Shown in pieces: positions 4,158 to 18,401 of a stretch of DNA of 57,373 nt. The notes beneath the pieces are model-generated. The model did no database searches. It saw only the letters and a list, made by a program, of their open reading frames with translations, and was not told the DNA's origin. The stretch comes from a virus. Made by a program: the position numbers and the translations under genes. Location of the stretch: positions 1 to 57,373 of the IMG/VR virus record IMGVR_UViG_3300031759_000022, one strand, 5' to 3'. The number at the start of each line of letters is the position of its first letter. Position 1 is the first letter of the stretch.

Positions 4158-5147
4158 ATGGCAGAAAATGAAAAAGACGTTCCTATTAAGGAACGTGAAG
4201 ACGGCTCGGTATTAGCCAAAGTGGAGTTTCCTGAAGAAATTGAGGACCACGAAGAAAAAAAACCAAAGAAAAAAGACGAAGAAGAGCACGATGAAGATGC
4301 AGAAGAGCATGCCGAGGAAGACTTGGATGATGACGAAGCTGCAGAAACTACCGAAGAGCGTGAAGCAATTCGAGAAGCCCGTCGTGAAGAGCGTAGACTT
4401 AAAAAAGATTTAAAAAAGCAACGCGATCTTTCCGCAAAGAATAAAATTAACGCACTTGAGCGCCGTAACGCGGAACTTGCAGAGCGTTTAGCTAAAGTTG
4501 AGAACACAGCCTCATCTTACCAATTTGCACAGTTAGACAAGTCCATTGAAGACGAAGCTACCCGTGTTGAATACGCTAAAATGAAAATGGTACAAGCTGC
4601 TCAGTCCGGTGATGTTGTAGGTCAGATGGAATTTTTAGAGCAACTAACAGATGCTAAACAGCGTTTGAACCAAGCTCAGCATTACAAAAAACAACAAGTG
4701 GATCAAGCACAAGCACCAAAACAAAACGTGCCAAATCCAATTACTACTGAGGTTCAAGCCAACGCAACACAGTGGCTTAAAAAGAACTCTTGGTATGATC
4801 CACAAGCTAGAGATATAGATAGTAAAATTGCTAAAGTAATTGACCAAGAACTCGTTACTGATGGTTGGGATCCAAGTGATCCTGAGTATTGGGAAGAGTT
4901 AGATAATCGTTTGCAATCCCGTTTACCCCATAGATACACATCTAAGGGTGGAAAAGAAACTAAACGTTCAGCAGGCCCAACAGCCTCTAGCCGTTCAGCA
5001 AATTCCTCATCACAAAAACCTGGAACTATTACCTTGAGCAAAGCTCGAGTTGATGCAATCAGGGATGCAGGATCATGGGATGATGTAGAAAAACGAAACA
5101 AAATGATCCGAGCATATGCTCGTTATGATCGTGAAAATAAAGGTTAA
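4158..5147 (+). CDS. Capsid assembly scaffolding protein
   Basis: A 329-residue, highly charged protein. Residues 20-110 are dominated by Glu, Asp and Lys with heptad-like character, then a helical region rich in Gln/Ala (about 110-200) and a basic Ser-rich C-terminus. This composition, and the position just upstream of the capsid genes, is typical of internal scaffold proteins that guide prohead assembly and then leave. No protease domain is visible in it or nearby, so exit without proteolysis is possible. The next gene follows after five bases. Confidence 0.7.
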   Translation: MAENEKDVPIKEREDGSVLAKVEFPEEIEDHEEKKPKKKDEEEHDEDAEEHAEEDLDDDEAAETTEEREAIREARREERRLKKDLKKQRDLSAKNKINALERRNAELAERLAKVENTASSYQFAQLDKSIEDEATRVEYAKMKMVQAAQSGDVVGQMEFLEQLTDAKQRLNQAQHYKKQQVDQAQAPKQNVPNPITTEVQANATQWLKKNSWYDPQARDIDSKIAKVIDQELVTDGWDPSDPEYWEELDNRLQSRLPHRYTSKGGKETKRSAGPTASSRSANSSSQKPGTITLSKARVDAIRDAGSWDDVEKRNKMIRAYARYDRENKG

Positions 5148-7402: not shown

Positions 7403-7406
7403 CATG

Positions 7407-7412
7407 TATAAT
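7407..7412 (+). promoter_or_regulatory. Host-type -10 box before the HNH gene
   Basis: A perfect TATAAT lies right after the terminator. A start site seven bases downstream would fall on the A of the ATG at 7419, giving a leaderless HNH message. No clear -35 is present. Confidence 0.35.
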
Positions 7413-7418
7413 AACATT

Positions 7419-7871
7419 ATGGCAAGAGATTTAGAAAACGCAAAAAAACTTAAAAAAGAATGGTATGAGCGTAATAAAACGCTTACTATTGAACGCGCAA
7501 TTAAGTGGCAAAAAGACAATATTGAAAGAAAACGTGAAATAAACACAAAATGGCGAGAAGAAAATAGAGAACAGCACAACGCCACAAATCGTAAATGGGA
7601 TGAAAGTAACAAACCCATCAAAGCAGCATTACAAGCTAAACGCAAATCAGCAATCCTTCAACACACCCCAGCTTGGGATCCACATGCACCCCTCATTATA
7701 GCAAAATATCAACTAGCCAATATGCTCTCTATAGCATCTGGCGAGCCATACCACGTAGACCACATTATCCCACTTCAAGGCCGTAAAGTATCCGGCTTGC
7801 ATGTCTTTTCAAACCTCAGAGTAATCCCCGGAGCAGAAAACTGCCAAAAATCAAACAAATACCCTGTTTAG
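7419..7871 (+). CDS. HNH homing endonuclease
   Basis: A free-standing HNH nuclease of 150 residues. The N-terminal half is a charged helix suited to DNA contact; the C-terminal part has the HNH core: YHVDHIIPLQGRKVSGLH, then NLRVIPGAENCQKSNK. The VDHI and GLHVFSNLRV segments supply the metal and DNA ligands. An in-frame ATG also exists at 7404, but it falls in the terminator tail; 7419 is preferred because of the TATAAT box. The gene sits in the gap between the capsid terminator and promoter site 3, and its stop codon overlaps that promoter (TAGGGCG), a neat insertion that does not disturb neighbours. Confidence 0.8.
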   Translation: MARDLENAKKLKKEWYERNKTLTIERAIKWQKDNIERKREINTKWREENREQHNATNRKWDESNKPIKAALQAKRKSAILQHTPAWDPHAPLIIAKYQLANMLSIASGEPYHVDHIIPLQGRKVSGLHVFSNLRVIPGAENCQKSNKYPV

Positions 7872-10113: not shown

Positions 10114-12021
10114 ATGGCCGATCAGTCGATATCCCAATTACCCGTCGCGCTAACCTTAACTGGTAATGAGCTGACTGTTGTCGTTCAAAATGGTATTACA
10201 AAGCAAGTCTCCATTGCGCAGATTGCTAATGCCGCTTCTCCAGGTAAATTAATAAGCAATATAATTTACGATCCATCAACTGGAGACTTAACAGTTTATT
10301 ACAGTGATGGCACACATGTTGTTTTAGGGCCCATTTCTGGATACAGCGGCATATCAGGATTCTCTGGTTTTAGCGGCTATTCAGGTTTTAGTGGCTTTTC
10401 AGGTTTTTCAGGCTGGTCTGGTATTTCAGGCTTCTCAGGCATATCTGGGTATTCCGGATCAGGAATAAGCGGCTACAGTGGCTATAGTGGTTTCTCAGGG
10501 CAAGTAGGAATCTCTGGATACAGTGGTATCTCAGGCTATAGTGGCCAATCTGGTTACAGTGGTATGTCTGGCTTGTCTGGATTTTCTGGCATTTCTGGAT
10601 TCTCTGGTTCTGGTGTTTCTGGTTATAGTGGATATAGTGGCTTTTCTGGTATCTCGGGCTACTCAGGCATCTCAGGATACAGTGGTATCTCAGGATACAG
10701 TGGTATCTCAGGATACAGTGGTATCTCAGGATATTCCGGTTCTGGTATATCGGGATACAGTGGATATTCAGGCTCTCCCGGAGCAGGTATTAATGTTAAA
10801 GGTACTGTAGCAACTCCAGCAGACTTACCCCCTATAGGTAATACAACAGGCGATGCGTATATTGTATCCTCTAATAATGATCTGTACGTTTGGAATGGTA
10901 CTGTATGGGTTAATATTGGTCCAGTTCAAGGACCACAGGGTGTAAGCGGGTATTCCGGATATAGCGGCTTATCAGGCATTTCCGGATACAGCGGCTTCTC
11001 AGGTATCTCGGGATTCTCTGGCATTTCTGGTTTTAGTGGATATTCAGGTATTTCAGGATATAGTGGCTTCTCAGGCTTCTCCGGTATACCTGGTGTATCT
11101 GGAGCAAGCGGCATCTCTGGTTATAGTGGCTTCTCAGGGTATAGCGGTCAAGTAGGTATTTCAGGCTACAGTGGATACTCGGGTATTTCAGGATATAGCG
11201 GTCTCTCAGGCGTTTCTGGGTATTCTGGTACCTCGGGGTACTCGGGTTCCGGTGCAAGCGGCTACAGCGGTTTTAGCGGCATCTCAGGCTATTCTGGATC
11301 CGGTATATCAGGCTATTCTGGATATAATGGTTCGGGAGTTAGCGGTTATTCAGGATACTCAGGAATCAATGGTACAAATGGCACTAGCGGTTATTCAGGT
11401 TACTCAGGCTATAGTGGCTCTGGAATTAGTGGATACAGCGGATATAGCGGTAGTGGAATAAGCGGTTATTCAGGCTATTCTGGTTCAGGTATTTCTGGCT
11501 ATAGCGGATTTTCTGGTATATCTGGATATAGCGGTTATTCGGGATTGTCTGTTACAACAAGCGCAAACAACACTTGGACAGGCACTCAAACCTTTAATGG
11601 CACTTCAAGCATATTGGCTGAAGTATTGCTTAATGCTGCTGAAACAACAACAATTTCTGCTACTGCCGCAACAGGCACTATTGCATTTTACCCATCAACA
11701 CAATCTGTTCTTTATTACACAAGTAACGCTTCTGCAAATTGGACTACCAACTTTACTTTCTCCGCTGGTACGACTTTAAATACGGCAATGACTACAGGGC
11801 AATCTTTAACTGTAGCTTTCTTGGTAACTCAAGGAGCAACGGCTTACTATAACAATGTGGTGCAAGTAGACGGCACAACTTCAGGTGTTACTACAAAGTG
11901 GCAAGGAAGTGCCGCACCTACTGCTGGTAATGCTTCTAGTGTTGATGTTTATACCTATTCGATTGTAAAAACAGGCTCTGCTACTTTTACAGTATTCGCA
12001 ACCCAAACTCAGTTTAAATAA
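10114..12021 (+). CDS. Tail fibre with Gly-X-Ser collagen-like repeats
   Basis: A 635-residue protein. Residues 1-70 form a virion-attachment-like head; residues about 75-225 and 270-480 are uninterrupted Gly-X-Ser triplets with X mostly Tyr, Phe or Ile (GYSGFSGISG), split by a module near 230-265 (GNTTGDAYIVSSNNDLYVWNG) typical of phage fibres. The last 150 residues are a beta-rich tip. The triplet looks collagen-like but lacks Pro, so a true collagen triple helix is uncertain. Near-identical DNA repeats allow length change by recombination. The dense Ser could accept sugars from the glycosyltransferases encoded 2-5 kb downstream. Confidence 0.75.
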   Translation: MADQSISQLPVALTLTGNELTVVVQNGITKQVSIAQIANAASPGKLISNIIYDPSTGDLTVYYSDGTHVVLGPISGYSGISGFSGFSGYSGFSGFSGFSGWSGISGFSGISGYSGSGISGYSGYSGFSGQVGISGYSGISGYSGQSGYSGMSGLSGFSGISGFSGSGVSGYSGYSGFSGISGYSGISGYSGISGYSGISGYSGISGYSGSGISGYSGYSGSPGAGINVKGTVATPADLPPIGNTTGDAYIVSSNNDLYVWNGTVWVNIGPVQGPQGVSGYSGYSGLSGISGYSGFSGISGFSGISGFSGYSGISGYSGFSGFSGIPGVSGASGISGYSGFSGYSGQVGISGYSGYSGISGYSGLSGVSGYSGTSGYSGSGASGYSGFSGISGYSGSGISGYSGYNGSGVSGYSGYSGINGTNGTSGYSGYSGYSGSGISGYSGYSGSGISGYSGYSGSGISGYSGFSGISGYSGYSGLSVTTSANNTWTGTQTFNGTSSILAEVLLNAAETTTISATAATGTIAFYPSTQSVLYYTSNASANWTTNFTFSAGTTLNTAMTTGQSLTVAFLVTQGATAYYNNVVQVDGTTSGVTTKWQGSAAPTAGNASSVDVYTYSIVKTGSATFTVFATQTQFK

Positions 12022-12022
12022 T

Positions 12023-12991
12023 ATGCCACTACTTAATACTAGAGGTGTAGCTTCTGCTAAAGGCTTTGGCTTTGGTGCTAAAGCGGGTATAGTTACTGGT
12101 TCACAATCTTATACAACTGCTGGTACTTACTCTTGGGTTGCCCCCGCTGGAGTCACTTCGGTTTCTGTAGTTGCTGTAGGTGGTGGAGGTGGCACAACAA
12201 CAGGAAGTTGTGCGTGTAGGACTACCTCAGGTGGTGGTGGTGGAGGATTGGGCTACAAAAATAACATTACAATAACACCTGGTTCTTCTTACACAGTAGT
12301 AGTTGGTCAAGCTAATAATTCATACTTTTGCTCTACTACTGTTGTAAAAGGTGGTGGAGGTCAAAATGGGTCTAATTGTGGTAGTGGTAGAGGTGGTGGA
12401 GCTGGAGGCACTTATGTAGGTACTGGTGGAGGTAATGGGGGTACTGGTAACATTTCTGGAGGCAGTACTACCCCAGGTGTCGGTGGTGGTGGTGCTGGTG
12501 GATACTCTGGTAATGGTGGTTGCGGTGGCTCTACTGGAACTAATTGTATTGGAGGTACTCCTGTGGCAGGTACACCAGCTATAGCTGGTTCTGGTGGTGG
12601 CGGTGGTGGTGGTGGTGGTGCGTTTATTAGTAAAATTACTTATTGTGGTTGTTGTGTCTGTGGTCAATTTTGGTTTGGTTCTGGAGGTGGCGGTGGTGGT
12701 GTAGGTATTTTTGGACAAGGTTCTAATGGAGCTGCAGGGACTGTTTCAAAATCTGGTACTAATGCTCTAGCAACTGGTGGTGGTGGTGGTTCTTCTGGCA
12801 CAAATGGAGGCACTGGCGTAGCTTCTTGTAATGCTGCTGGTGGTGCTGGTGGTGCTTATGGCGGTGGTAGAGGAGCTATTTCTAGAACTCTCGCTCAAAG
12901 CCAAATACAGTCTGGTTCTGTTGGCGCTGTCCGCATCGTCTACCCTGGATTAACCCGTCAATTCCCATCTACTTGCGTAGGCTCACCTTAA
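12023..12991 (+). CDS. Glycine-rich adhesin-like tail protein
   Basis: A 322-residue protein with a short N-terminal segment, a beta strand pair (SYTTAGTYSWVAPAGVTSV) and then many polyglycine runs (GGGGGG) separated by short loops. The pattern matches Gly-rich tail-tip domains and recalls the polyglycine-II sandwich of T-even gp38 adhesins, whose loops bind the receptor. Two loops hold clustered cysteines (SCACRTT and CGCCVCGQFWF), unusual for virion surfaces and possibly disulfide- or metal-stabilised. It directly follows the repeat fibre gene and is probably part of the receptor-binding tip. Confidence 0.65.
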   Translation: MPLLNTRGVASAKGFGFGAKAGIVTGSQSYTTAGTYSWVAPAGVTSVSVVAVGGGGGTTTGSCACRTTSGGGGGGLGYKNNITITPGSSYTVVVGQANNSYFCSTTVVKGGGGQNGSNCGSGRGGGAGGTYVGTGGGNGGTGNISGGSTTPGVGGGGAGGYSGNGGCGGSTGTNCIGGTPVAGTPAIAGSGGGGGGGGGAFISKITYCGCCVCGQFWFGSGGGGGGVGIFGQGSNGAAGTVSKSGTNALATGGGGGSSGTNGGTGVASCNAAGGAGGAYGGGRGAISRTLAQSQIQSGSVGAVRIVYPGLTRQFPSTCVGSP

Positions 12992-13005
12992 TTTAGAAAA
13001 ACAAA

Positions 13006-13353
13006 ATGAACTTATATATTCAAACTGAAAACGGAAATGCAATTAATCACCCAGCTTTTGAGGATAACCTTATAGCGGCATTTGGTTCTATTCCTGCACA
13101 TTGGGAAACCTTTATTAGAGTTGAAAGACCTATACCTACTATTTATCAAGTGTTAGATAGTCAAGAGCCAACATATCAAAAAGCGAATGGTGTTTGGACT
13201 GATGTCTGGGCATTGCGTGATATGACTGCCGATGAAAAAGCAGCTAAACAGCAAGCAGCTAAAGACCTGTGGGCGCAAAGACCAAACCTTGCTAACTTTA
13301 GTGCATGGACTTTTAATGAAGTAACTTGTCAGTATGAACCACCAATTCCATGA
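13006..13353 (+). CDS. Fibre-associated protein with in-frame TGA and conserved-looking extension
   Basis: The 115-residue product begins MNLYIQTENGNAINHPAFED and has a charged helix (MTADEKAAKQQAAKDLWAQRP) before FNEVTCQYEPPIP. The frame stays open after the TGA at 13351-13353 for 26 more codons to TAA at 13432-13434, reading PTDGNAYRWDGATNSWVEF. That extension has the character of the usual C-terminal end of this type of small fibre-associated protein. Either a sense codon became TGA (CGA or TGG would each need one change), or the stop is read through. Its place after fibre genes suggests a fibre assembly or accessory role. Confidence 0.6.
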   Translation: MNLYIQTENGNAINHPAFEDNLIAAFGSIPAHWETFIRVERPIPTIYQVLDSQEPTYQKANGVWTDVWALRDMTADEKAAKQQAAKDLWAQRPNLANFSAWTFNEVTCQYEPPIP

Positions 13354-13461
13354 CCAACTGATGGCAACGCCTATCGTTGGGATGGAGCAACTAATTCTTG
13401 GGTAGAGTTTACCCCGCCAACTCAAGTAGGATAATTTATGACTATTTCCCTTCAACCAATG

Positions 13462-13489
13462 TTGGAACACCATAAAAGTAATATATAAT
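13462..13489 (+). promoter_or_regulatory. Host sigma-70-type promoter before the oxygenase/glycosyltransferase cassette
   Basis: TTGGAA (13462-13467), 16 nt, TATAAT (13484-13489). It lies in the gap before the GTG start at 13521. This cassette may therefore be expressed independently of the phage-specific promoters. Confidence 0.5.
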
Positions 13490-13520
13490 AGAAGTTCTAT
13501 TTAATTTTTAAGGAATCCTT

Positions 13521-14180
13521 GTGAGTGATGCCACAACCCAAGAGCAGTTAAACGCTTTCTATTATTTTCCATCGGGTGTCTATGTTATAGAAAAGCCTGA
13601 GTTCTTAAAAGATGCTAGGGATGCTTGTAAAAAAGCAGTAGCCAAGCAAAAGAAAGAACGCAAGTTAGATGAAATTTACCCTGTTTACATGACAGAGAAT
13701 TTGTTTGACTACAAAGGCATGAGTGAATTATCTGACTATATCGGTCAAACTGCTTGGAATATTCTTAAAGAACAAGGCTACGCAATGGAAGGCTTTAGCA
13801 CAAAGTTTTCCGAGTTTTGGTGTCAAGAACACCATAAGCATTCCGCAATGGATCAACACGTTCATGGTTACGGTTCGCAAATTGTTGGCTTCTATTTTGT
13901 AGATACTCCTGAAAATTGTTCCAGAGCAGTATTTCATGATCCAAGATCAGCCAAAGTGCAAATCAATTTGCCTGAAACGGATATGACCCAAGCAACCCCA
14001 GCAAGCAATATGATTAACTTTGAACCAAAACCCGGTATGCTGATGTTTGCTAATGCTTGGTTGGCGCATTCGTTTACGCGCCATGCTTCTGAAAAGCCAA
14101 TTCGCTTTATTCACTTTAACCTGTACGCAGAGCAAGTTCAGCAAGCCCCAGCTTGCGCTGCCCCTGCGGAGGTTGTATGA
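13521..14180 (+). CDS. Putative 2-oxoglutarate/Fe(II)-dependent oxygenase
   Basis: A 219-residue protein resembling the small phage 2OG-Fe(II) oxygenase group. The C-terminal half shows a double-stranded beta-helix pattern: MDQHVHGYGSQIVGFYFV holds the first iron-ligand region, FHDPRSAKVQINLP follows, and GMLMFANAWLAHSFTRH then RFIHFNL carry the distal His and the Arg expected to bind 2-oxoglutarate. Such enzymes hydroxylate protein side chains, nucleobases or small molecules; the substrate is unknown. The GTG start follows AAGGAAT. It opens a cassette with glycosyltransferases bracketed by two fibre genes. Confidence 0.65.
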   Translation: MSDATTQEQLNAFYYFPSGVYVIEKPEFLKDARDACKKAVAKQKKERKLDEIYPVYMTENLFDYKGMSELSDYIGQTAWNILKEQGYAMEGFSTKFSEFWCQEHHKHSAMDQHVHGYGSQIVGFYFVDTPENCSRAVFHDPRSAKVQINLPETDMTQATPASNMINFEPKPGMLMFANAWLAHSFTRHASEKPIRFIHFNLYAEQVQQAPACAAPAEVV

Positions 14181-14410
14181 ATAAATACCGAATCCGGTTT
14201 AACAAATCAAGAGGTCTTGAAGGCAGAGGATCTAAAGATCACGTTTGGAGAGTATTTGAAGGCGATAAAGAATACCTCTTTAAACACTTTCAGCTTAATG
14301 TGCCATCTACCAGCGAAAAAGAAGCCAATTCGGAAGATTGGAATGTAGTTTGCTATGGTATTATGACTATCGACAAAGACACTTCTACAGCGACCATCAA
14401 TGAAATATAG
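14177..14410 (+). CDS. Small hypothetical protein in glycosylation cassette
   Basis: The ATG at 14177 overlaps the oxygenase stop (ATGA), which decides the start over the longer open frame. The 77-residue product is basic at the N-terminus (MNKYRIRFNKSRG) and has a two-strand C-terminal part (DWNVVCYGIMTIDKDTSTATI). No family was recognised. It also overlaps the next gene by 11 bases, so the whole cassette is translationally linked. Confidence 0.6.
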   Translation: MNKYRIRFNKSRGLEGRGSKDHVWRVFEGDKEYLFKHFQLNVPSTSEKEANSEDWNVVCYGIMTIDKDTSTATINEI

Positions 14411-15626
14411 CGTTGTAATACCGACTTATAGCAATTGCGATAAATACTTAAAACCCTGTATAGATTCAATTGTTAAATACACCGAAATGACCGACATAGA
14501 GTTGGTCATTTCTGCTAATGGTTGCACTGATAATACCTATCCGTACCTAGCGTATTTGCAATCATCGCTCCCTAACATTACTGTGGTTTGGAACGCCCAT
14601 CCTTTAGGGTTTGCCAAAGCGACTAACGCAGGGATTGAAGCTGCCCTATGCGATAAGATTGTGCTGTTAAACAATGACACGGTATTGTTAGAGCAACCTA
14701 AAAACCGTTGGTTAGAATGGCTTGACCAAGGCGATGTTAGCTATGTCTTAGGGCAGAATTCCCCAATTACTCAGCGGCGATTTGGCATCTTTTTTATTGC
14801 CATGATTCAAAAGAAAGTCTTTGACACCCTTGGCTTGCTAAATGAAGATTACACTACCGGTGGGTGCGAGGACATTGAGTTTTGCTTTGAGGCTGAGAAA
14901 GCTGGATTTAAGTTATCCGAATGCGATAACAAGGGGACTTACCCCATATATCACGCGGCTGAAGGCACAATGCACGACCCAGAGCTAGTTCAAGATTGGA
15001 AACAAAAGTTTTATGTTAACGAATTAAAACTAGCAAAAAAATATAATATTGAGTATTATAAATTTTTATTATCCAATAACTTTGAAAGAGCCGTATTTCT
15101 TAAAGGAGACTTAGTATTCCCAAGGGAAACCCAGCGCTATGAGTGGGCTGCTAAAAATATTTATGGTAATTCAGTATTAGAAATTGGGTGTTCTACAGGT
15201 TATGGCTGCCAGTTTTTTTCAGAAATTAATTACTTAGGAATAGACTATGACCAAGTTATCGTGGGAGTCGCTAAAGAACAAAATTGGAAATCTAGCGCTT
15301 ATTTTGACTGGGCTGATATTAACTCTTATGCTTTTAATCAATATGATACGATTATTGCTTTTGAGGTAATAGAGCATCTAGATAACGGATTAGAAATTGT
15401 TGAAAAGCTCAAGCAGCATTGCAAGCGATTATTAATTACTGTGCCACACAATGAGCCTAAAGGCTTTTGGGGCGAACATCATAAATTGCATGGTTTAAAT
15501 GAAAGCAACTTCCCTGGTTTTGAGTTTGAGTACATTAATCATGCTGGAGACGTATCCAGTCTATTACAGGTAGTAGATAGTAGTAATCTTAGTAATCTTA
15601 TGATTTGCCGGTGGGACAATGAGTAA
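14400..15626 (+). CDS. Glycosyltransferase (GT2-like) fused to a SAM methyltransferase
   Basis: A 408-residue two-domain enzyme. Residues 1-200 are a GT-A family 2 transferase: SVVIPTYSNCDKYLKPCIDS, then LLNNDTVLL as the DxD-like nucleotide-sugar site, and GGCEDIEFCFEAEKAG as the acceptor-side acidic motif. Residues about 250-390 are a class I methyltransferase with SVLEIGCSTGYGC (motif I), YLGIDYD and FEVIEHL. It would transfer a sugar and possibly methylate the product. The position between two fibre genes suggests modification of virion fibres, although host surface glycans are an alternative target. Confidence 0.75.
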   Translation: MKYSVVIPTYSNCDKYLKPCIDSIVKYTEMTDIELVISANGCTDNTYPYLAYLQSSLPNITVVWNAHPLGFAKATNAGIEAALCDKIVLLNNDTVLLEQPKNRWLEWLDQGDVSYVLGQNSPITQRRFGIFFIAMIQKKVFDTLGLLNEDYTTGGCEDIEFCFEAEKAGFKLSECDNKGTYPIYHAAEGTMHDPELVQDWKQKFYVNELKLAKKYNIEYYKFLLSNNFERAVFLKGDLVFPRETQRYEWAAKNIYGNSVLEIGCSTGYGCQFFSEINYLGIDYDQVIVGVAKEQNWKSSAYFDWADINSYAFNQYDTIIAFEVIEHLDNGLEIVEKLKQHCKRLLITVPHNEPKGFWGEHHKLHGLNESNFPGFEFEYINHAGDVSSLLQVVDSSNLSNLMICRWDNE

Positions 15627-16605
15627 AGTATTGTGCAGTGTAGCAACACGTGGTCGGTACCATACAACGCTTCCACTGGTGTTGAATGCCATCATAAACC
15701 AGTCTAAACCGGTTGATAAGCTGGTTGTCTTTGATGACAACGACGAACCGCAAGACATGCGGAAAGAAATGATTTACCAGTATTTTTTCCAGATGTTAGA
15801 TGCAAAAGGTATTGCTTGGGAGTGGCTATACGCGGATAAAAAAGGTCAGCATTACATTCATCAAAATGCAAATGAAATGGGATATGATTGGGTTTGGCGT
15901 TGTGATGATGATGCTATACCAGAGCCTAATGTGCTTGAAAGACTGGTGGGATACGCCATTGAACTAACTAATGTTCAGATAAAAGTAGGCGCAATTGGCG
16001 GTGCTATTCTTACTCCTCCAAACTTACCTGACACTTCTATATCAACAGGTGATATAGATAGAATTGATTTAGAGCCAAATATTCAATGGAATTACATTGA
16101 AAGAGCTAAAGAAGTAATGCACTTGCATTGCTCTTTTTTGTATAGGGCGGGCGTACACGATTACAACTTAGGGCTATCCAGAGTAGCTCACCGAGAAGAA
16201 ACTTTATTTACCTATGGTATGTATCAAAAAGGATACAAACTATTTGCTGTACCAAACGCAGTAACTTGGCACATGAAAAACCCAGAAGGCGGGATTCGTA
16301 GTGAGACAAAGAAAGAAATGTATGACCATGATGAATTTATATTTAGAAATGTTCTTGAATATCGTAATAAAACCATTGTGGTTCTTAATAGCGGTCTTGG
16401 TGACCATATTGTATTCAATAGGGTTCTTCCTTCAATACCTAATGCTGAAGTGTTTACTTGTTATCCTGAAATCATTCCCGGACGTTCGATAGAAGAGGCC
16501 CGGTATCTATTTGGAAGTTTAGAAGACCATAATATATATAAAAAAATGGACCAATGGAAATGGAAAGATAGTTTAGAAAATGCGTATAGAAAGCTGTATC
16601 TATGA
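15619..16605 (+). CDS. Glycosyltransferase (GT-A) with N-terminal half of a GT9-like domain
   Basis: Residues 1-240 form a GT-A glycosyltransferase: CSVATRGRYHTTLPLVLNAI, a DDNDEP loop, and WRCDDDAIPEP with the metal-binding Asp96-Asp98. From residue 250 a second fold begins with TIVVLNSGLGDHIVFNRVLP, the typical start of heptosyltransferase-like GT9 proteins. The GT9 fold is not completed here; its second half appears in the next gene, which starts in a four-base ATGA overlap. The two products may assemble into one split enzyme, or a fusion was broken recently. Confidence 0.7.
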   Translation: MSKVLCSVATRGRYHTTLPLVLNAIINQSKPVDKLVVFDDNDEPQDMRKEMIYQYFFQMLDAKGIAWEWLYADKKGQHYIHQNANEMGYDWVWRCDDDAIPEPNVLERLVGYAIELTNVQIKVGAIGGAILTPPNLPDTSISTGDIDRIDLEPNIQWNYIERAKEVMHLHCSFLYRAGVHDYNLGLSRVAHREETLFTYGMYQKGYKLFAVPNAVTWHMKNPEGGIRSETKKEMYDHDEFIFRNVLEYRNKTIVVLNSGLGDHIVFNRVLPSIPNAEVFTCYPEIIPGRSIEEARYLFGSLEDHNIYKKMDQWKWKDSLENAYRKLYL

Positions 16606-17036
16606 TAGTTATTTCCCCATATGCTCAAAAACTAAGAAACGGTAAGTTAAACCCAAAAAATTATCCGTATTGGAAAGAGCTAATTGAATTAATTGATGAG
16701 CCAATTATACAAGTTGGTATAGAGGGCGAAGAGGAATTGGTTCCGGACTTTAAAAAAAACTTACCAATTAAAGAATTGCGCGCTTTAATTAAAGACTGCA
16801 GAATTTGGATTTCTTGTGATAGCTTTTTACAACACTTAGGTTGGGATGAAGGCAAAAAAGGAATTGTGTTATGGGGGCCTTCCGATCCGTTAATTTTTGG
16901 GCACCCAGAAAATATTAACTTACTAAAAGATAGATCGTATTTAGTACAAAATCAATTTATATGGTGGGAAGCTACTGAACACCAAAATGAAAGATTCGTA
17001 AATCCACAAGAAATATTAGCACATTTAAAGGAATAA
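16602..17036 (+). CDS. C-terminal half of GT9 heptosyltransferase-like enzyme
   Basis: The 144 residues match the C-terminal Rossmann half of family 9 glycosyltransferases: VISPYAQKLRNGKLNPKNYP (the nucleotide-sugar half start), IIQVGIEGEEEL, then DCRIWISCDSFLQHLGWDEG and VLWGPSDPLIFGHPEN. In complete enzymes these follow the GLGDHI half, which here ends the previous gene. ADP-heptose or a related sugar nucleotide is the family donor. The start overlaps the upstream stop, favouring coordinated synthesis. Confidence 0.7.
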   Translation: MIVISPYAQKLRNGKLNPKNYPYWKELIELIDEPIIQVGIEGEEELVPDFKKNLPIKELRALIKDCRIWISCDSFLQHLGWDEGKKGIVLWGPSDPLIFGHPENINLLKDRSYLVQNQFIWWEATEHQNERFVNPQEILAHLKE

Positions 17037-17039
17037 AAA

Positions 17040-18401
17040 ATGGCACAATCTGGCTACACAGCCTTACAAACATATTACACTACTGTATCAGGAAACCAGC
17101 CGGCGGCAGGGAACTTGGCTGGTGGAGAGCTCGCTATAAATACAGCAGATGGCACACTGTTTTATAAAAACACATCCGGAGTAGTTAAGCTACTAGCTGG
17201 GGGATCGGGTTCTTCTGGCGGATCCGGTTTTTCTGGGTACAGTGGTTTTAGTGGTGCTACCGGAAGTGGTGGATCAGGATCATCTGGATTAAGCGGCTAT
17301 AGTGGCTATTCAGGATTAGGCATATCTGGATACTCAGGACTTAGTGGATATTCTGGTGCGGGTAGTGGTTCTATATTAACCACGGCTAACGCCTTTACAA
17401 ATACAAATACATTTGCCACAACAGTATCTGTTGGTTCAACCAGTACACCAGGTACCTTATATGTTAAAGGTGGTAATGGAAATACCTTACTAATTGACAA
17501 CGGAGGGCAGCAATTTACAACATTTGCGATTTATAATAACGGTATCGAAAAAGCTCAAGCATACTGGGATCAAACTAATTTGTTATTTGCTTTGGGAACA
17601 GATGTAAGCTACCCAATGGTTTTAAGAACAGCAGCAACAGAGCGCATGCGCATAGCTGCATCTGGGGGCGTATCTGTTGGAACACTATCAGATCCCGGGG
17701 CTAATAACTTATTAGTTAATGGAACAGTTCAAGGTAGCACTTTTTATGGCTCCGGTTCTGGATTAACTGGTACCGCTTCTAGCTTGTCTGTAGGATTTGC
17801 TTCAAGTTCTTCTTACGCAACATCTTCGGGCTCTACTTCTTATGCAACATCTGCTGGATCTGCTACCTCAGCTTCTACTGCTGGAGGATTAACCGGAACG
17901 CCTAATATTACTGTTGGTACGGTAACAACCGGCACAATAAATTCATCTGGCACTACACTTAACCTTCAAATTGGTGGCAGCCCATTTATTGCTATGAATA
18001 ATAGCTTTAATACTTTCTTTCCAAATAACGACAATACGGTTTCCTTGGGTGGTGCAAGTAACAGATGGACTACCGTATATGCCACAACAGGAACAATTAA
18101 TACTTCTGATGGAAATGAAAAGCAACAGATTCAGAATTTAACCGTTGCTGAAATTGCTGTGGGTAAGGCATTAAAACCCATACTAAAAAGTTTTAAATAC
18201 AATGATGCAGTTCAAAAAAAGGGCGCTGATGCCCGTATTCACTTTGGTATTATTGCTCAAGATGTCCAAGCAGCTTTTGTAGCTCAAGGACTAGATCCTA
18301 ATAGCTACGGCGTGTTTTGTTCTGATGTACTAACCGACGGAACTGTTCGTTTAGGTGTACGATACGACGAATTATTTGCACTTATTTTAGCAGCAATTTA
18401 A
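17040..18401 (+). CDS. Tail fibre with C-terminal S74 self-cleaving chaperone
   Basis: A 453-residue protein. Residues 55-115 hold a short Gly-X-Ser repeat stalk like the large fibre gene. The middle is Ser/Thr/Ala-rich beta structure. The end is a peptidase S74 intramolecular chaperone: the Ser356-Lys361 dyad in TSDGNEK, then LKPILKSFKYND, HFGIIAQDVQAAF and RYDELFALILAAI. In known fibres this domain trimerises the stalk and cuts itself off. It follows the glycosyltransferase cassette directly, so two repeat fibres bracket those enzymes. Confidence 0.8.
   Translation: MAQSGYTALQTYYTTVSGNQPAAGNLAGGELAINTADGTLFYKNTSGVVKLLAGGSGSSGGSGFSGYSGFSGATGSGGSGSSGLSGYSGYSGLGISGYSGLSGYSGAGSGSILTTANAFTNTNTFATTVSVGSTSTPGTLYVKGGNGNTLLIDNGGQQFTTFAIYNNGIEKAQAYWDQTNLLFALGTDVSYPMVLRTAATERMRIAASGGVSVGTLSDPGANNLLVNGTVQGSTFYGSGSGLTGTASSLSVGFASSSSYATSSGSTSYATSAGSATSASTAGGLTGTPNITVGTVTTGTINSSGTTLNLQIGGSPFIAMNNSFNTFFPNNDNTVSLGGASNRWTTVYATTGTINTSDGNEKQQIQNLTVAEIAVGKALKPILKSFKYNDAVQKKGADARIHFGIIAQDVQAAFVAQGLDPNSYGVFCSDVLTDGTVRLGVRYDELFALILAAI

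Follow-up and report, generated by a model that had tools for sequence, protein, structure and literature searches.

What do the glycosyltransferases encoded between two fibre genes of a lake phage modify? The window analysed here, an IMG/VR virus record of 57,373 bases, encodes a portal, capsid, endolysin, DNA polymerase, ribonucleotide reductase and primase, and no similarity of its DNA to named phages was found. An endonuclease VII-like gene lies at 7404–7871, within the structural gene region. A preliminary description of the region from 10114 to 18401 saw a single cassette of oxygenase and glycosyltransferase (GT) genes between two fibres with Gly-X-Ser repeats, and proposed that the phage hydroxylates and glycosylates these repeats. 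We report here that the GT genes are tied to the repeats and that the oxygenase belongs to something else.

Organization of the fibre locus

The genes between the two fibres are present as first described (Table 1), and the region also contains three genes that had gone unmentioned (12023–12991, 13006–13353 and 14153–14410). A separate host-type promoter had been suggested as well, and the candidate is one 10-of-12 match at 13462–13489. However, the region has 17 promoter-like matches compared to 23 expected from shuffled sequences, so a separate promoter is not supported beyond chance.

Table 1. Genes of the fibre locus, in window coordinates.
Feature	Coordinates	Strand	Remarks
Fibre 1, 635 aa	10114..12021	+	Conserved N-terminal domain, Gly-X-Ser shaft and C-terminal tip; proposed acceptor
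Gly-rich protein	12023..12991	+	phrog_4474; Gly_rich_2 match below cut-off; member of oxygenase module
115-aa protein	13006..13353	+	No family match
2OG-Fe(II) oxygenase	13521..14180	+	2OG-FeII_Oxy_5 (5.8e-11), phrog_81, TIGR02466-like
85-aa protein	14153..14410	+	Follows the oxygenase
GT2-methyltransferase fusion	14400..15626	+	GT2 at residues ~1–190; SAM methyltransferase at ~245–408
GT-A + GT9 N-half fusion	15619..16605	+	GT9-type part at residues ~250–328; constant core of the cassette
GT9 C-half, donor-binding type	16602..17036	+	Glyco_transf_9 above cut-off; ATGA overlap with preceding stop
Fibre 2, 453 aa	17040..18401	+	S74 chaperone domain and Gly-x-y triplets; second proposed acceptor

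Repeat chemistry of the fibre shafts

Fibre 1 matches the Pfam Collagen family (3.4e-41) and has a long and perfect Gly-x-y periodicity of 109 triplets, 94 of which have serine at the third position, with X being mostly Tyr, Ile or Phe. Fibre 2 contributes 17 Gly-x-y triplets, 12 of them with serine in third place. The regular spacing of potential acceptor serines noted in the preliminary description is thus evident, but the two proteins together contain about 106 third-position serines and not the hundreds that it envisaged. Proline is nearly absent from the Gly-X-Ser shaft, unlike the proline-rich x and y positions of collagen-like repeat proteins, and there is almost no lysine. A protein-level search with the repeat stretch, with the low-complexity filter on, gave zero matches, and no published mention of the repeat strings was found in the literature searched.

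In cassette-bearing phages serine accounts for 87% of third positions in the shaft. The corresponding fibre gene of cassette-less phages encodes Gly-Pro/Ala-Thr/Gln shafts, in which the third position is 50% Thr and 17% Gln, and serine is near zero. Between Gly-X-Ser fibres and those of the other kind, N-termini match in 42 of 56 comparisons and tips in 14 of 39. Because the N-termini and some of the tips are common to both kinds of fibre, the cassette follows the shaft and not the tip.

A split GT9 enzyme joined to a GT-A domain

The genes at 14400–17036 form a phage gene family composed of a GT2-methyltransferase, a GT-A domain fused to the N-terminal half of a GT9 enzyme, and the GT9 C-terminal half. 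In the family alignment, D96-D97-D98 of the GT-A part and G261-D262-H263 of the GT9 N-half are invariant, and the C-half scores 23.8 bits against Glyco_transf_9 (cut-off 22) and aligns with the donor-binding half of the heptosyltransferase WaaC (3.6e-4). The two Rossmann halves of GT9 are not in one chain but in two, split at the domain boundary. This is not a sequencing error or frameshift, because a four-base stop-start overlap, either ATGA or GTGA, recurs in 155 of 157 loci; L302 and L351, both distant relatives, have an unsplit chain.

For fold comparison we modelled L351, one of the unsplit relatives (mean pLDDT 83). The best matches to its GT-A domain are polypeptide GalNAc-transferases, with Z scores of 18–20 (top 19.9), and other GT-A enzymes score 17–19. 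The modelled fold fits a protein acceptor without proving one, since polysaccharide synthases are also among the nearest folds, 1–3 Z units below the top match. The D-x-H metal motif of the polypeptide GalNAc-transferases (GT27) is absent, with D96-D97-D98 in its place, and aligning the GT-A part with solved structures by sequence gave no match. TibC is not among the sequence or fold matches, an absence that excludes nothing, and the GT9 N-half is preceded by the GT-A domain, not by the N-terminal beta-barrel of the bacterial autotransporter heptosyltransferases TibC/AAH.

The GT2-methyltransferase is the variable part of the cassette. Other loci have an FkbM methyltransferase, a second GT2 with a methyltransferase, a methyltransferase joined to the GT-A protein, or only a methyltransferase, variability that is expected of a tailoring step.

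The cassette and the Gly-X-Ser shaft switch together

We found 362 relatives of the GT-A/GT9 protein and kept 80 for comparison of gene content. Gly-X-Ser repeats are present in all 35 GT-anchored loci (24 of 24 clusters) that have at least 4.5 kb of upstream sequence. A neutral control consisted of 80 loci fetched by their capsid protein (at least 96% identical), of which we counted a locus when its downstream sequence reached at least 9 kb or the cassette was already visible. Both repeats and cassette are present in 29 of these loci (22 clusters) and neither in 13 (10 clusters). Repeats only are seen in a single locus, L222, a contig that shares its 140-triplet fibre gene with L227 but ends earlier; in L227 and L189, both counted among the both-present loci, the cassette was found further along by searching the whole record. 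The association is strong (Fisher p 1.2e-7), with the caveat that loci are not independent samples. A tree was built from the capsid gene together with as much as 3.5 kb of the sequence upstream of it. Its supported branches carry at least seven switches of the repeat state, and in six of six independent pairs the cassette switches as well (p 0.031, from six pairs only). Apart from these six pairs, our counts are of clusters and not of independent events.

A wider set of repeat records was collected by DNA pattern, blind to the GTs. The GT-A/GT9 protein is encoded in 24 of the 47 such records of at least 10 kb, compared to none of 50 Gly-Pro-Thr records (Fisher p 5e-10); two of the 47 are Gly-x-Thr repeats with an aromatic x, giving 24 of 45 for Gly-x-Ser. 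Any GT9 domain is found in 26 of the 47 (the 24 with the cassette, plus G034 and G038) and in 1 of the 50. The preliminary description had asked whether cassette and repeats co-occur in other phages or whether cassettes are as frequent beside fibres without Gly-X-Ser: they do co-occur, the cassettes are not equally frequent beside other fibres, and in capsid-matched phages the two traits switch together. The co-switching, the 35 of 35 loci and the 24 of 47 versus 0 of 50 records all support glycosylation of the Gly-X-Ser fibres.

Roughly half of the records in the wider Gly-X-Ser set lack a GT-A/GT9 family match, and these are mostly contigs of unknown completeness; in most of the cassette-less records GT9 is absent altogether. 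They may be fragments, or the phages may use other means. Among 83 proteins neighbouring the cassette-less Gly-X-Ser genes the only GTs are one GT2 and one GT8-GT9, both in L295 (3351–11776 of G034), where a Gly-X-Ser fibre adjoins a GT8-GT9 fusion, an RCC1-repeat protein and a GT2-GT2-methyltransferase. This arrangement of GT-A and GT9 seems to have reached a similar solution independently, an apparent convergence. At 4295–9403 in L488 (G038, 116 kb), Gly-Phe/Tyr-Thr repeats lie next to a GT9-domain protein of 694 aa, which makes this locus a threonine counterpart.

Adjacency and the host-surface alternative

Repeats and cassette are 17–19 kb apart in phages of 103, 120 and 494 kb, are separated by 7 kb in L227, and lie on opposite strands in G033. 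The pairing spans podo-, sipho- and jumbo-type phages. Hitch-hiking by adjacency is weakened as an explanation by these distances, and because the large phages hold both traits so far apart the pairing is not caused by neighbourhood. Cassette and Gly-X-Ser shaft are strictly paired, independently of fibre tip and gene neighbourhood. Several Gly-X-Ser genes together with one distant cassette are found in the very large phages G032 (494 kb; sites at 193, 420 and 423 kb), G007 and G018.

We consider it unlikely that the GTs alter LPS or O-antigen on the host surface so as to keep out competitor phages, and travel with fibres only through block recombination of tail regions. GT9 is indeed the LPS heptosyltransferase family, the GT2 part weakly matches GtrB-like O-antigen conversion, and the cassette usually adjoins a fibre. 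However, cassette presence tracks the chemistry of the shaft and not the tip, the part that would contact the host, the pairing persists without adjacency in the large phages and across virion types, and the cassette has no Gtr-type membrane protein partner.

A cultured phage and host genomes

The sole named phage found with the cassette is Methylophilaceae phage P19250A (KX815270.1, L236), a cultured siphovirus of Methylopumilus planktonicus (PMC7678222), with LD28 as host strain. Gene P19250A_0023 (product APC43908.1) encodes 281 Gly-x-Ser triplets and directly precedes the methyltransferase, GT-A/GT9-N and GT9-C genes. In the annotation, all four products (genes 0023–0026) are listed either as tape measure or as hypothetical proteins; P19250A_0023 carries the annotation of tail length tape-measure protein, yet it is a Gly-X-Ser repeat protein.

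Among approximately 85,000 species genomes the GT-A/GT9 protein is present in four, and since all four matches are on MAG contigs no bacterial home for it was found in that set. One contig in a Candidatus Nitrosotalea bin (L484, JAHEYD010000010.1) encodes the GT-A/GT9 protein together with a 213-triplet Gly-X-Ser protein, and is probably phage DNA binned with an archaeal genome.

The oxygenase belongs to a separate module

Relatives of the oxygenase were compared for gene content at 75 loci. The 85-aa gene follows the oxygenase in 72 of the 75, and the 115-aa gene is directly upstream in 47 of 73. Where the upstream DNA is long enough, Gly-X-Ser repeats are missing from all 40 oxygenase loci (34 clusters) that lack GT genes and present in all eight (4 clusters) that have them, and the oxygenase is found in just 3 of the 24 GT clusters. 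These counts rule out the oxygenase as part of the glycosylation system; the link is therefore between the GTs and the repeat, with the oxygenase an addition in the window phage and a few relatives. What had been described as one cassette is two unrelated modules, the GT genes and an oxygenase module. The latter, consisting of the Gly-rich, 115-aa, oxygenase and 85-aa genes (12023–14410), recurs widely among freshwater phages without Gly-X-Ser.

Of the two modifications first proposed for the repeats, glycosylation is supported by the pairing but hydroxylation is not. A two-step pathway, hydroxylation of the repeats by the oxygenase and then glycosylation of the hydroxyls by the transferases, would resemble the action of Mimivirus L230 on lysine (PMC9614988). 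In its favour are this precedent and the gene string that oxygenase and transferases share in the window phage and a few relatives. We regard it as very improbable, given the cluster counts above and repeats that offer almost no Lys or Pro, while serine needs no prior hydroxylation. Obligate hydroxylase-GT coupling of the L230 type is not seen in the GT clusters.

Phages are also known in which pairs of oxygenases and GTs modify DNA (TET/JBP with TET-associated GTs), and one homologue in our set has a second GT2 domain with a weak TAGT match, so the enzymes could conceivably glycosylate phage DNA at a hydroxylated base made by the oxygenase. The chance of this is slighter still: most GT loci have no oxygenase, the oxygenase is of the 2OG-FeII_Oxy_5 type and not TET/JBP, and DNA modification does not explain why the cassette tracks the fibre repeat.

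Proposed role of the cassette

We conclude that 14400–17036 is quite likely a phage-borne protein O-glycosylation set, the predicted acceptors being the third-position serines of Gly-X-Ser shafts, here those of fibre 1 and probably also of fibre 2. The two-chain GT-A/GT9 enzyme would attach a short glycan to the serines of the shaft and extend it, presumably drawing on host nucleotide sugars, and the GT2-methyltransferase would extend the glycan further and cap it with a methyl group. The glycan may stand in for the stabilising (hydroxy)proline of which the shaft is almost devoid, or alternatively could shield the shaft against proteases or host surface defences. It is thus probable that cassette-bearing phages have a sugar coat on their fibre shafts.

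We would give even odds to a broader view, in which the chemistry of a fibre's shaft and its dedicated glycosylation cassette constitute one exchangeable trait that is widespread in freshwater phages. Its core would be a split GT9 fused to GT-A and translated via the stop-start overlap, it would provide dense O-glycosylation of proline-poor Gly-aromatic-Ser triple helices, and the glycan tips would be diversified by methyltransferase and GT2 swaps.

Virion glycosylation has been demonstrated in few phages so far, and we know of no tie between that of mycobacteriophages and a repeat type. GT genes of environmental phages are usually read as modifying DNA or the host surface. The statistical link described here names a probable acceptor, the serines of the fibre shaft; the control set matches repeat type to enzyme by co-switching, beyond neighbourhood alone, and the cultured phage P19250A makes the reading testable. 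If it is correct, sugar-coated shafts are common among lake phages, those as large as 494 kb included, and the enzymes would be a tool for glycosylating simple repeat proteins.

Comparison with known systems

In Clostridioides difficile spores, SgtA O-glycosylates threonine, and also serine, in the Gly-x-y repeats of BclA3 (PMC7157674), and the window resembles this system in that a GT gene stands beside, and is paired with, the gene of a collagen-like Gly-x-Ser/Thr repeat protein. BclA3/SgtA, however, has Gly-Pro-Thr repeats on spores and a single GT without a GT9 half, whereas the window has Gly-aromatic/Ile-Ser repeats on phage fibres and a split GT9 with a methyltransferase. TibC is a WaaC-like GT-B protein glycosyltransferase that hyper-glycosylates serine, but not threonine, of repetitive adhesins (PMC4358343). 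As in TibC/AAH, a WaaC-like GT9 half is paired here with serine repeats, although TibC has an N-terminal beta-barrel and acts alone as a dodecamer, and the GT9 of the window is in two chains, is fused to GT-A and is accompanied by tailoring enzymes.

Mimivirus L230 hydroxylates and glucosylates collagen-like viral proteins (PMC9614988), but as one bifunctional protein acting on lysine, whereas the proposed acceptors in the window are serines and there is no obligate hydroxylase. Mycobacteriophage-encoded GTs glycosylate virion proteins, namely capsid and tail tube (Freeman et al. 2023, as cited in PMC12619734); the glycans of that account are at the C-termini of these proteins, whereas in the window phage they are proposed to be on fibre shafts. 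The 0023–0026 genes of P19250A show the same pairing of repeat and cassette as the window, but without the GT2 domain.
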